64,000 nucleotides of DNA from Pontibacter akesuensis. Lineage in GTDB: Bacteria > Bacteroidota > Bacteroidia > Cytophagales > Hymenobacteraceae. Location: NCBI RefSeq assembly GCF_001611675.1, contig NZ_CP014766.1, forward strand, positions 3,162,001 through 3,226,000, read 5' to 3'. Position 1 is the stretch's first letter. Each line of letters begins with the position of its first letter. The translations under genes were made by a program, and so were the position numbers. This document shows positions 44,052-47,182 of the stretch, piece by piece. The notes below the pieces were generated by a model, which saw nothing but the letters and a program-made list of their open reading frames with translations, was not told where the DNA came from and searched no databases.

Positions 44052-44762
44052 GTGACAGCACTACAAAAGGCATTGACAACCATGGAAGATAGATTAGACG
44101 ATATCATCAACGGGCTTCACCACAAGTCCAAGACAAAGCAGCTCATTTACCGCAACACCAAGGCAACGTTCGAGCGCATGAAGGAAATTGCTCAGGAACT
44201 GGTGGACGAACTAACGGACCGGGTAACGCAACAGGATGCAAACGTGTTGCTGGAGTTCCGAAATGTGGGGGAGCATGAGTTCCAGATTAAGTTTTCGGGC
44301 GATCTGCTCGTGTTTGTGATGCACACCAACATCATCACTTTCCCGGATGATTATGAAATCATGCGGAGCGCCTATGTGGAGGAGGATTTCAGGAGAAGGT
44401 TCTTCGGCAACGTGCTGGCTTACAACTTTATGGCTGATACCATAAAGTATAACAGGCTCGATGACCCCGGTTACCTGATCGGGCGCATGCTCGTGAACAT
44501 CGAAAACCATTTTTGCATTGAGGGAGTGAAGCAACTGGACCTGCCGCTGGACAAAGTGACTAATTTCGAGAAGAACAAGCTAAACGACAAGGTGCTCAGG
44601 ATCATTATAGAAAGCGCGATGGTGGCCTCCGTAAACAACGACCTGATGGGCCAGGATGTGAGCGACATCGAGCGCATCACCTATAAGCAGAAGCTCGAGA
44701 ACATGCACCTGGTGCGCCCCAGCAAGCTGGGTTTCCAGATCAGCCATGCCCTTACCAACTAA
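44052..44762 (+). CDS. conserved hypothetical protein of Bacteroidota
   Basis: A 236-residue soluble protein, read from a GTG at 44052; an ATG at 44082 (MEDRLDD) is an alternative start. The first 60 residues are charged and helical, the middle has alternating hydrophobic residues (HEFQIKFSGDLLVFVMHTNIITF), and the remainder is alpha-helical. I recognise no domain or catalytic motif. It has no signal peptide and no membrane segment. It stands alone, with a terminator at 44796-44828. Confidence 0.75.
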   Translation: MTALQKALTTMEDRLDDIINGLHHKSKTKQLIYRNTKATFERMKEIAQELVDELTDRVTQQDANVLLEFRNVGEHEFQIKFSGDLLVFVMHTNIITFPDDYEIMRSAYVEEDFRRRFFGNVLAYNFMADTIKYNRLDDPGYLIGRMLVNIENHFCIEGVKQLDLPLDKVTNFEKNKLNDKVLRIIIESAMVASVNNDLMGQDVSDIERITYKQKLENMHLVRPSKLGFQISHALTN

Positions 44763-44795: not shown

Positions 44796-44828
44796 AAAAA
44801 CGGCCTGCGCATAGCACAGGCCGTTTTT
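44796..44828. terminator. bidirectional terminator
   Basis: Twelve-bp arms AAAAACGGCCTG (44796-44807) and CAGGCCGTTTTT (44817-44828) between the convergent hypothetical and phhA genes. Confidence 0.8.
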
Positions 44829-44866
44829 GGTATATAACTCACTTAAAAATCTATCTTAAGCCGGGG

Positions 44867-45613
44867 CTAGAGCGTCTCCTCCACCGGCTCTTCTCTTAGC
44901 TTCTCAATGGCCTCGCTGATAGCCGGCAGGCTGTGCAGCAACTGCTCAAAGCTCTCGATGCAGAAGTACTGGCTCTGGAAAGTCTCTTTGATGTAAGATG
45001 TGTCCAGGATGTGCTGCACGTCAAAATCATACTTCACGCTCTCATCCGACACCGAAAGCTTACTCTCGCCTACCGATGAAAGTATGCCAGCACCGTAAAT
45101 CTTCGCTTTCCCTCCCGGCTTGCGGAACAGGCCAAACTCAATGGTGTACCAGTAAATGCGTGTCAGGCGGTCAATGATATCGGGCCTGTCGATGTGCTGC
45201 AGGGCCATGGCAGAAAGCTGCGCCAGGAAATCGCAGTACACGGGAATGGTCAGCAGGGGCACGTGGCCGAACACGTCATGAAACATGTCGGGCTCCTCCA
45301 GGTAATCCAGCTGGTCCATGCGGCGCACCCAAACCGTGGCCGGAAACTGCTTGTTGGCAATCAGCTGGAAAAACAGGGCATCATCCACAATTCCGGGTGC
45401 GGCCACCACCTCGAACCCTGTCAGGGGGCGCAGCTTTTGGTTTACTTCGTTGAAGTTTGGAATGCGCTCGCGGCTAAAGCCAACCTTTTTCAGGCCTTCC
45501 ATAAATTCCGGAATGGCCTTATCCGGTAGGTTCTCCACCTGGCGGTCAAAAAGGATAGACCATACATTATGATTTTCTTCTGTGTAGCTGCTGTAGTTCT
45601 GAATTAAGCTCAT
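44867..45613 (-). CDS. phhA: phenylalanine 4-monooxygenase
   Basis: A 248-residue pterin-dependent aromatic amino acid hydroxylase that converts phenylalanine to tyrosine. The iron ligands are seen in EPDMFHDVFGHVPLL (two His) and YWYTIEFGL (Glu), and GAGILSSVGE follows as in the family. There is no N-terminal regulatory ACT domain, as usual for bacterial forms. The gene is preceded by a promoter, a 60-codon Tyr-rich leader and a terminator (45666-45956), so its expression should rise when charged Tyr-tRNA is scarce. That fits a biosynthetic role in making tyrosine more than a purely catabolic one. Confidence 0.95.
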   Translation of the reverse strand: MSLIQNYSSYTEENHNVWSILFDRQVENLPDKAIPEFMEGLKKVGFSRERIPNFNEVNQKLRPLTGFEVVAAPGIVDDALFFQLIANKQFPATVWVRRMDQLDYLEEPDMFHDVFGHVPLLTIPVYCDFLAQLSAMALQHIDRPDIIDRLTRIYWYTIEFGLFRKPGGKAKIYGAGILSSVGESKLSVSDESVKYDFDVQHILDTSYIKETFQSQYFCIESFEQLLHSLPAISEAIEKLREEPVEETL

Positions 45614-45665
45614 GGGTATGAAAGTTTATTTTTATCTGAATAGTTCGAATGGGTATAAAATAAAA

Positions 45666-45689
45666 AAAGCAGGGCTTTCGCTCTGCTTT
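45666..45689 (-). terminator. attenuator terminator of phhA
   Basis: Ten-bp stem with one G-U pair, AAAGCAGGGC (45666-45675) / GCTCTGCTTT (45680-45689), loop TTTC. On the minus strand it is followed by seven Ts. It lies between the leader peptide and the phhA start at 45613. The competing strand CGCTCTCTTTG (complement at 45759-45769) pairs with the 5' arm through 6 + 5 bp and one bulged base. Confidence 0.82.
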
Positions 45690-45732
45690 GCTGTATCACT
45701 GAAGATTGGCCTTATGATGGACCTTTCTGTTT

Positions 45733-45915
45733 TTACGATAGAATATCGGTGTGACTGCCAAAGAGAGCGCGGTACGTACGGTAATAATAATAGCCGTAAT
45801 AATAGCTGCAATAGCTATAAACGCTCAGGCAATAAGAAGAAATGGCAGGCAGCAGCGCTACACCAAAAGGGGTAGAGGAGGAATGATTTGTCGCTATGGC
45901 TGCTGTTTGTTGCAT
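45733..45915 (-). CDS. Tyr-rich leader peptide of phhA
   Basis: A 60-codon frame from the ATG at 45915 to a TAA. Codons 28-48 hold eleven Tyr codons, including SYYYG and YYYYRTY. Directly after the last Tyr come the codons for RALFG (CGC GCT CTC TTT GGC), whose RNA can pair with the 5' arm of the terminator at 45666-45689. Ribosomes held at the Tyr codons would expose this strand and let transcription run on into phhA. The peptide is long for a leader, so its first 25 codons may have another role, or translation may start later. The gap from 45916 to 46057 shows only the promoter. Confidence 0.82.
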   Translation of the reverse strand: MQQTAAIATNHSSSTPFGVALLPAISSYCLSVYSYCSYYYGYYYYRTYRALFGSHTDILS

Positions 45916-45925
45916 GTTATGGTTA

Positions 45926-45956
45926 CAATAATACGAACTTCTGCTTTAAACGCAAG
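45926..45956 (-). promoter_or_regulatory. promoter of the phhA leader
   Basis: CTTG (45956-45953, minus strand), exactly 19 nt, then TATTATTG (45933-45926), each one base from the Bacteroidota consensus. Transcription would start near 45921, only a few bases before the leader ATG at 45915, so the leader RNA would be almost leaderless. Confidence 0.5.
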
Positions 45957-46057
45957 TTTTATTTTGTTGTTTTTGATTTGGTTAAATACCTCCCGTTCTA
46001 GCAGTGTCGGATACTTACATGGTTTAAAAGCATACAAATCACCTTAAAAATAAGGTT

Positions 46058-47182
46058 ATGCGTATAATAAGTAGAGGTATTCGTGGATTAAGCGGTGCCG
46101 CCAGTATGATACAGTTCCTGCTTTTCATTGCCCGTGCTTTCACTTACAGGACAAGCCAACTGTGGGGCATCAGTTTGCTAGCTTCTGCTTGTGGCGTACA
46201 TACCCCGGATAGCGGAGATGTGGAGCCGCTGCGCACCGAGCATGTGATTCTGGTGGTTATAGACGGCCCTCGCTATTCTGAGTTGTGGGCCGACAGTGCC
46301 GAGCTTGCCCCCAACCTTAGCGGCAAGCTGATGCAGGAGGGTGTTTTCGCTTCTGATTTCTATAACGATGGCTATACTTACACAAACGCGGGCCATGCGG
46401 CCCTTACCACCGGCGTAAACCAGGCCATCGACAACTATGGGAATGAACTGCCTGCTAACCCATCTATCTTTCAGTATTACCTGAAAGCCTCGGGAAAGCC
46501 TGCCACAGCCGCCTGGGTGGTGGCCAGCAAAGACAAACTGGACATTCTCGGCGATACCCGGCACCCGGAGTGGCAGGGAACTTACCAGCCATCGCTGAAC
46601 TGCGGTGTGAACGGCCCAAACACAGGCTACCGGATGGACTCGCTTACCTTAATGGAGGCAAAAAGGATTTTAGCTACGCACCGGCCCAGTTTGATGCTGC
46701 TAAATTTTATGGAACCGGACGGCTACGCGCATGCAGGCAACTGGGCAAACTACGTCCGGGGCATTGCCCGAAACGACAGGTATATCAAACAGCTTTGGGA
46801 CTTCCTGAAAAAGGATCCTTTTTATAAAGATAAAACCACGCTGCTGGTTACCAGCGACCATGGGCGCCACCTTGACGGCGTAGCCGAAGGCTGGCCGGAG
46901 CACGGCGACCACTGTGCCGGCTGTGAGCACATTGGCCTGCTGGCCATTGGACCAGACTTTAAGAAAGGCAGAAAGCTTAAAAGCCGCTACACGTTGGTTG
47001 ATATTGCACCCACGGTGGCGTACCTGCTCCAGTTCAGAATGGATTCAGTCGTGTTCGAACCAGTTCCCGTGGCGGCTGTGGCAGGCATTGCCGCAGATAC
47101 TGTAGCCGTCGGCGTGCAGCAAAAAACGCTGCTAAAAGGCGCCACCCGAAAAGGCAATGTGATAAGTGAGCTGTTCAGGTAA
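46058..47182 (+). CDS. alkaline phosphatase superfamily lipoprotein
   Basis: A 374-residue protein of the sulfatase/phosphodiesterase superfamily. The metal-binding start is HVILVVIDGPRYSELWAD, followed by the nucleophile region DGYTYTNAGHAALTTG, and the C-terminal metal ligands in LLVTSDHGRH and GDHCAGCEHIG. A lipobox-like LLASACG near residue 45 suggests a surface or periplasmic lipoprotein, in which case the true start may be the internal ATG at 46106. The substrate (phosphate monoester, diester or sulfate) cannot be told. The C-terminal 50 residues lie outside the core. Confidence 0.8.
   Translation: MRIISRGIRGLSGAASMIQFLLFIARAFTYRTSQLWGISLLASACGVHTPDSGDVEPLRTEHVILVVIDGPRYSELWADSAELAPNLSGKLMQEGVFASDFYNDGYTYTNAGHAALTTGVNQAIDNYGNELPANPSIFQYYLKASGKPATAAWVVASKDKLDILGDTRHPEWQGTYQPSLNCGVNGPNTGYRMDSLTLMEAKRILATHRPSLMLLNFMEPDGYAHAGNWANYVRGIARNDRYIKQLWDFLKKDPFYKDKTTLLVTSDHGRHLDGVAEGWPEHGDHCAGCEHIGLLAIGPDFKKGRKLKSRYTLVDIAPTVAYLLQFRMDSVVFEPVPVAAVAGIAADTVAVGVQQKTLLKGATRKGNVISELFR

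Follow-up and report, generated by a model that had tools for sequence, protein, structure and literature searches.

The amino acid operons trp, his, pheA, and thr of Escherichia coli are controlled by ribosome-mediated peptide-leader attenuators, and the trp system in addition shows superattenuation. Another solution is provided by T-box tyrosine riboswitches, which sense the charging of tRNA-Tyr and control termination by binding the tRNA directly, with no leader peptide. In the phylum of the locus described here, leader-peptide attenuation was proposed before amino acid biosynthesis operons of Flavobacterium psychrophilum (PMC9723704), and leader-like small open reading frames were reported in Bacteroides thetaiotaomicron (PMC7366714); unlike the present case, the accessible parts of these two papers name neither phhA nor a Tyr leader. 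Biosynthetic phenylalanine hydroxylases have been described in Echinicola vietnamensis, Dyella japonica, and Legionella pneumophila (PMC7311316), where the accessible part of the paper argues from mutant fitness and growth and describes no regulation.

The locus considered here lies in a 64,000-nucleotide stretch of the Pontibacter akesuensis genome (the window), and all coordinates without a genome prefix are window positions. Like the E. coli attenuators, it combines a leader rich in codons for the end product, protector, antiterminator, and terminator strands, and an intrinsic terminator 5' of the structural gene; unlike them, its leader reads Tyr and stands before a gene for phenylalanine hydroxylase, which is not a classical attenuated operon. 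It resembles the T-box riboswitches in that tRNA-Tyr charging would decide on termination, and differs from them in having a leader peptide and in the absence of any match to Rfam families at gathering score in the window, the T-box included. As in the cases of PMC7311316, as far as its accessible part describes them, the hydroxylase would serve as a source of tyrosine, and Echinicola belongs to the same phylum. Very probably the locus carries a ribosome-mediated attenuator that senses charged tRNA-Tyr and sets the expression of a PhhA whose role is mainly biosynthetic; its regulatory response is what we infer from this arrangement.

The putative regulated gene, phhA (44867..45613, minus strand), encodes a phenylalanine 4-monooxygenase of 248 amino acids, as assigned from its frame and from family and structure matches. 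Its product matched PF00351 at 1e-43 in the profile search and passed the curated family NF008877 (267.3 bits, cut-off 247), while TIGR01267, one of the two bacterial equivalog models, gave 257 bits, slightly below its cut-off of 264.75; the nearest solved chain is 3tk2_A, a phenylalanine-4-hydroxylase. The neighbouring frames are divergent upstream (46058-47182, plus strand) and convergent downstream (44052-44762, plus strand), so that leader and phhA make up a separate unit, in which phhA appears to stand single behind its leader with no partner gene.

For comparison within the genus 60 Pontibacter loci were pooled into 40 distinct upstream regions, the more divergent same-genus copies in G045 and G041 (L123, L124) being kept outside this count; in L071, on a contig equal in length to that of G045, the leader has six Tyr in 12 codons. 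The promoter-like element CTTG-N19-TATTATTG (45926..45956, minus strand), which we take to be of the Bacteroidetes promoter type, has its -33 TTG at 45955-45953 and its -7 TATTATTG at 45933-45926. The motif TTGCGTT is found at most 75 nt 5' of the leader ATG in 32 of the 40 regions, and a TTGC..TTG pair with a spacing of 24-30 nt in 38 of them, one of these (L089) resembling chance pairing beside the ATG. In the window 10 nt separate the -7-like element from the ATG (45915-45926), the distance in nearly all relatives being 15-17 nt, and because of this short distance the window's leader mRNA may be nearly leaderless.

The leader frame, MQQTAAIATNHSSSTPFGVALLPAISSYCLSVYSYCSYYYGYYYYRTYRALFGSHTDILS, of 60 amino acids (45733..45915, minus strand, stop codon included), contains in its codons 28-48 a segment with 11 Tyr among 21 codons, 8 of them TAT and 3 TAC (45772..45834, minus strand). 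When the 400 bases upstream were shuffled 2000 times with dinucleotides preserved, no shuffle attained 7 Tyr in 10 codons. The 4.83 Mb genome contains the pattern TAYTAYTAYN{0,9}TAYTAY twice, once in the phhA leader; a His-run pattern gave 130 matches over the whole genome, too many to be of use. Matching Tyr-rich frames followed by a terminator are present in all 40 Pontibacter regions, and the ATG frame likewise has six or more Tyr within 10 codons in each of the 40, where shuffles predict 0.01 regions and the other strand gives 0. Orthologous regions without a Tyr-rich frame or without a terminator had been named in the initial annotation as the observation that would contradict an attenuator, and no such region was encountered in this set. 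The 40 leaders contain 281 TAT and 84 TAC codons, six genes of the window 33 and 51, respectively; an excess of synonymous changes was not seen in the leader peptide among the 40 sequences.

Between leader and phhA lies the intrinsic terminator AAAGCAG-A-GC-GAAA-GC-C-CTGCTTT with seven Ts (45662..45689, minus strand), identified by folding, the hairpin occupying 45689-45666 and the Ts 45668-45662. Folding of 45775-45655 to minimum energy (z -2.76; 2 of 200 shuffles equally good) pairs the RALFG codons directly 3' of the last Tyr with the 5' strand of this terminator. Three further strands can be named on the minus strand: the putative protector strand 1 (45821..45833, limits approximate), which is known from the model only as the partner of strand 2 with a ribosome on the stop codon; strand 2, the 5' antiterminator strand inside the codons RALFG-S-H (45751..45769), drawn from the fold and from a C-G/G-C exchange in the GTCAC:GTGAT helix; and strand 3, the 3' antiterminator strand (45679..45699), drawn from folds and pair counting, which overlaps the 5' arm of the terminator. 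Owing to this overlap in sequence the antiterminator excludes the terminator, with a pairing specific to each class of regions, although one partner exchange and one slide control described below speak against it. Thus the promoter-like element, the leader with 11 Tyr codons, the terminator with seven Ts, and the antiterminator strand encoded by RALFG that had been noticed initially are all present on the minus strand. A generic scanner run over 44800-46100 called neither the terminator nor the promoter, because its targets are promoters of the E. coli type and hairpins with a loop of 3-8 and a stem free of interruptions, whereas the stem found here contains an A.C mismatch.

A hairpin ending in CTGCTTTTTT is found in 40 of 40 Pontibacter regions with energies from -8.0 to -18.0 kcal/mol in 42-nt folds, whereas the antiterminator is divided into the classes A1 (9 regions), A2 (12), and B (16), 37 regions in all, with L012, L013, and L015 outside every class. 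Class A1, which includes the window, has a strand 2 composed of CGCTCTCTTTG and GTCAC or ATCAC; class A2 has CTCAG for CTTTG and ATCAG for ATCAC, with strand 3 altered to match; and in class B the leader stop codon TAA falls inside strand 2. Because of this division a consensus fold of all 40 regions yielded hardly any common structure and was replaced by class-wise alignments and duplex tests. Mean duplex energies with the own partner are -17.0 (A1), -18.6 (A2), and -23.4 kcal/mol (B), and five of six exchanges of partners between classes gave weaker duplexes (-8.4 to -15.2 kcal/mol), the exception being strand 2 of A1 paired with strand 3 of B at -22.2 against -17.1 kcal/mol with its own partner.

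The covariation which the initial annotation had proposed to look for is present but thin. Pair counting on the class-wise alignment of A1 and A2 (21 rows) revealed one antiterminator pair that is G-C in 12 rows and C-G in 9, the only doubly changed pair of the antiterminator, and this exchange may be a single event; the terminator is nearly invariant and has no such pair. Paired cells make up 89.5% in the antiterminator and fall to 28-37% when the partners are slid along each other; a slide by -1 gives a higher covariation score (0.100 against 0.074 unslid) and raises the doubly changed cells from 9 to 14, with only 35.5% of cells paired. Taken together, the leader frame, its Tyr codons, the terminator, the class-specific antiterminator pairing, their conservation, and the lack of a detectable TyrA described below are shown by the sequences and their comparison.

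From these features we infer promoter use, translation of the leader, ribosome stalling, termination, and a response to tyrosine in the following order. With plentiful tyrosine the ribosome would pass the Tyr codons fast and arrive at the stop codon, where strand 2 would pair back on strand 1, leaving strand 3 free for the terminator, and transcription would stop 5' of phhA. When charged tRNA-Tyr is scarce, the ribosome would stall on the Tyr codons, over and just 3' of strand 1, and the exposed strand 2 would pair with strand 3; the terminator would not form, phhA would be transcribed, and PhhA would convert phenylalanine to tyrosine. An enzyme acting in this way under tyrosine shortage would be a mainly biosynthetic one.

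The modelled effect of ribosome position on pairing was obtained with transcripts cut directly 5' of the 3' arm of the terminator and a ribosome placed at a given codon. In the window the expected number of pairs between strands 2 and 3 is 15.9-16.1 at 10 of the 11 Tyr codons and 0.3 at the stop codon, the last Tyr codon not favouring the antiterminator (2.8 pairs), while pairs between strands 1 and 2 number 11.4 at the stop codon, 0-0.6 at the same 10 of 11 Tyr codons, and 4.1 at the last one. The Tyr-codon mean of the pairing of strands 2 and 3 exceeds the stop-codon value in 36 of 37 classed regions, and with other ribosome footprints the stalled state exceeds the stop state in 33 of 37 (13/9) and 34 of 37 (19/14). 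With the ribosome modelled at the stop codon the protector forms in class A and strand 2 is covered in class B. Cut-transcript models thereby reproduce the classical 1-2-3-4 logic in most classed regions. In the same model of the window the antiterminator also forms on the untranslated leader (15.7 pairs), so that, unlike in trp superattenuation, an untranslated phhA leader is predicted to read through. When complete leaders of seven regions were folded to equilibrium, the terminator was favoured at nearly all ribosome positions, and in the window the antiterminator was favoured at the first Tyr codon only; the modelled case for ribosome position depends on folding a transcript cut before the 3' arm of the terminator.

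The enzymatic background of Pontibacter agrees with a biosynthetic role to a large extent. Prephenate dehydrogenase TyrA (PF02153) was not detected in the window's genome (G000), while the same search found it in 14 of 14 control genomes; PF02153 is over cut-off in 27 of 50 Pontibacter genomes. PhhA matches were obtained in 43 of the 50, over most of the length in 42 and over 31 residues in one (G027). All 23 TyrA-negative genomes have PhhA, and of the 27 TyrA-positive ones 19 have a full PhhA and 8 are without (p 0.005, uncorrected for kinship). A gene for pterin-4a-carbinolamine dehydratase, which serves cofactor recycling, is present in 49 of the 50 genomes, G000 included. At the same time 4-hydroxyphenylpyruvate dioxygenase (HPPD) is over cut-off in 48 of the 50, G000 among them (G000:C1:476252-477316), and the HmgA_N model, run on G000 only, found a gene with this domain there (G000:C1:2235773-2236468). 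With these two genes at hand the result for HgmA_C (0 of 50) was dropped as proof that tyrosine breakdown is missing, since for G000 at least this negative is probably false; gene content there makes tyrosine breakdown likely to be possible, and PhhA may therefore also feed breakdown. The reading of PhhA as biosynthetic in the initial annotation is thus supported by the undetected TyrA and by the 23 TyrA-negative genomes, and is tempered by HPPD and the HmgA_N gene.

Some Pontibacter tyrA genes have a leader of their own. A Tyr-rich leader with a terminator, often containing Phe codons as well (for example, MTTKLNNYFTFYYYYFYRRKQAGFLW), precedes tyrA or aminotransferase-tyrA in 10 of 21 loci checked from the 27 TyrA-positive genomes (L111, L112, L253, L255, L257, L259, L261, L264, L266, and L267). 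No tyrA leader was found in the 8 Pontibacter genomes without full PhhA. In L258 a Tyr-rich frame is located 629-746 nt upstream of tyrA.

Outside Pontibacter, Hymenobacter, which the proposed comparative test had named, and other Cytophagales have shorter Tyr-run leaders and then terminators. The 60 non-Pontibacter phhA loci (L021-L080) were sorted by whether 12 codons of a leader contain four or more Tyr or His: 37 loci have such a leader, and 23 have none by this criterion. Behind 34 of the 37 leaders stands a terminator (it was not found for L050, L066, and L078), L066 and L078 being doubtful leaders. When Tyr alone is counted, 19 of the 60 loci come up to 4 Tyr in 10 codons; shuffles give 0.23 and the opposite strand 0. 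Many of the loci have phhA in a cluster where it stands behind trpA and aroF and is followed by hisH, hisA, and hisF (Algoriphagus, Roseivirga, Cecembia, and others) or by aminotransferase-tyrA (Fulvivirga), leader and phhA being placed within trpA-aroF-phhA-hisHAF or trpA-aroF-phhA-aminotransferase-tyrA clusters, whose gene families were verified on one example each; Cecembia has the phhA-his cluster with no leader by the Tyr-or-His criterion. In the sister genus g5 of the window's family (e.g., L129 and L130) many genomes have two adjacent phhA-like genes.

Leaders with interleaved Tyr and His codons, such as MNPTPRTYVHHSYHLLH, precede phhA-hisH-hisA-hisF in L021, L023-L025, L032, L037, L041, and others and are possible dual Tyr/His attenuators. 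Queuosine is common to Tyr, His, and Asn tRNAs, but a reading of these codons in terms of queuosine was put aside because the His codons accompany his genes. In the first set of 37 leaders those with at least 2 His and those with fewer number 26 and 1 with his genes downstream and 0 and 10 without. A fresh set of 90 loci, 12 of them identical to earlier ones, left 78, of which 49 are without a leader under the loose criterion, and the phhA switch is accordingly not universal in Cytophagales; at the same His threshold the association there is weaker (10 and 3 with his genes, 6 and 10 without, p 0.061; with a terminator required, 8 and 2 against 3 and 9, p 0.030). Under a stricter rule, set after the rows had been seen, which demands a terminator and either five or more Tyr plus His in 12 codons or four or more Tyr, and which removed L050, L055, L066, and L078 from the first 37, the leader codons agree with operon content in 57 of 60 confident rows. 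The three exceptions are L207 and L211, with hisH and a Tyr-only leader, and L223, with a Tyr and His leader and no his gene within 2.5 kb. On the tree the confident rows show only five changes, for which reason the kinship-corrected test (3 pairs, median p 0.25) is unable to reach significance. Apart from these three rows the control codons match the regulated product, and outside Pontibacter they seem largely to track the operon, Tyr without his genes and Tyr plus His with hisHAF, over few independent events. It is somewhat more likely than not that one old attenuator design has been rewritten as Cytophagales operons change, with Tyr for phhA alone, Tyr plus His for phhA-hisHAF, and Tyr or Tyr/Phe for aminotransferase-tyrA, the Tyr plus His leaders being dual sensors.

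Against this background other readings of the window's leader can be weighed. That a TAT/TAC run has merely arisen in an intergenic region near an unrelated terminator is scarcely credible: the stretch is simple in composition, and the generic scanner and the Rfam gathering scores give nothing, but the shuffles never reproduced the run, the codon content largely tracks operon content in relatives, and conservation in all 40 orthologous regions already contradicts chance. An action of the leader on translation, or through a nascent-peptide stall, in place of ribosome-mediated control of termination, is very improbable. The non-Tyr parts of the peptide are indeed similar over the 40 leaders, with a common start M-H/Q-x-P-A-A-I-A; yet a T-tract terminator stands in each of the regions, the antiterminators are largely matched to their partners, and the C-terminal parts of the leader vary by class together with the RNA pairing.

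Slightly less improbable, though still unlikely, is a tyrosine-reading attenuator whose PhhA serves mainly to start phenylalanine breakdown, continued by HPPD and homogentisate, as the wide occurrence of HPPD and the HmgA_N-domain gene of G000 would allow. For a breakdown enzyme, however, antitermination at tyrosine shortage would have the wrong sign, TyrA is not detectable in G000, PhhA is kept by every TyrA-negative genome, and phhA lies within trp/aro/tyr/his biosynthetic clusters in many relatives. The attenuator with a mainly biosynthetic PhhA, as proposed initially, is upheld by the leaders and terminators of the 40 Pontibacter regions, as far as sequence comparison and folding models can carry it.

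In the literature searched, which covers few subscription journals, neither an attenuator on phhA nor Tyr plus His leaders were found, in line with the earlier remark that no attenuator on a phenylalanine hydroxylase gene is described. The class of mechanism is an old and classical one; what is new is which gene and which amino acid are involved, and that the leaders track operon content. If the proposed control is true, it would provide regulatory evidence for a biosynthetic bacterial phenylalanine hydroxylase, a role for which the arguments to date, in the accessible part of PMC7311316, come from growth and from the fitness of mutants, and a biosynthetic PhhA could be recognised elsewhere from sequence alone. 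The phhA and tyrA leaders, read as a record of operon products, would offer simple tests of attenuator evolution, and the same leaders allow testing whether one leader reads two unrelated amino acids. If it does, the Tyr plus His leaders of Cytophagales would couple the hydroxylase-based tyrosine route to histidine synthesis via one ribosome race.
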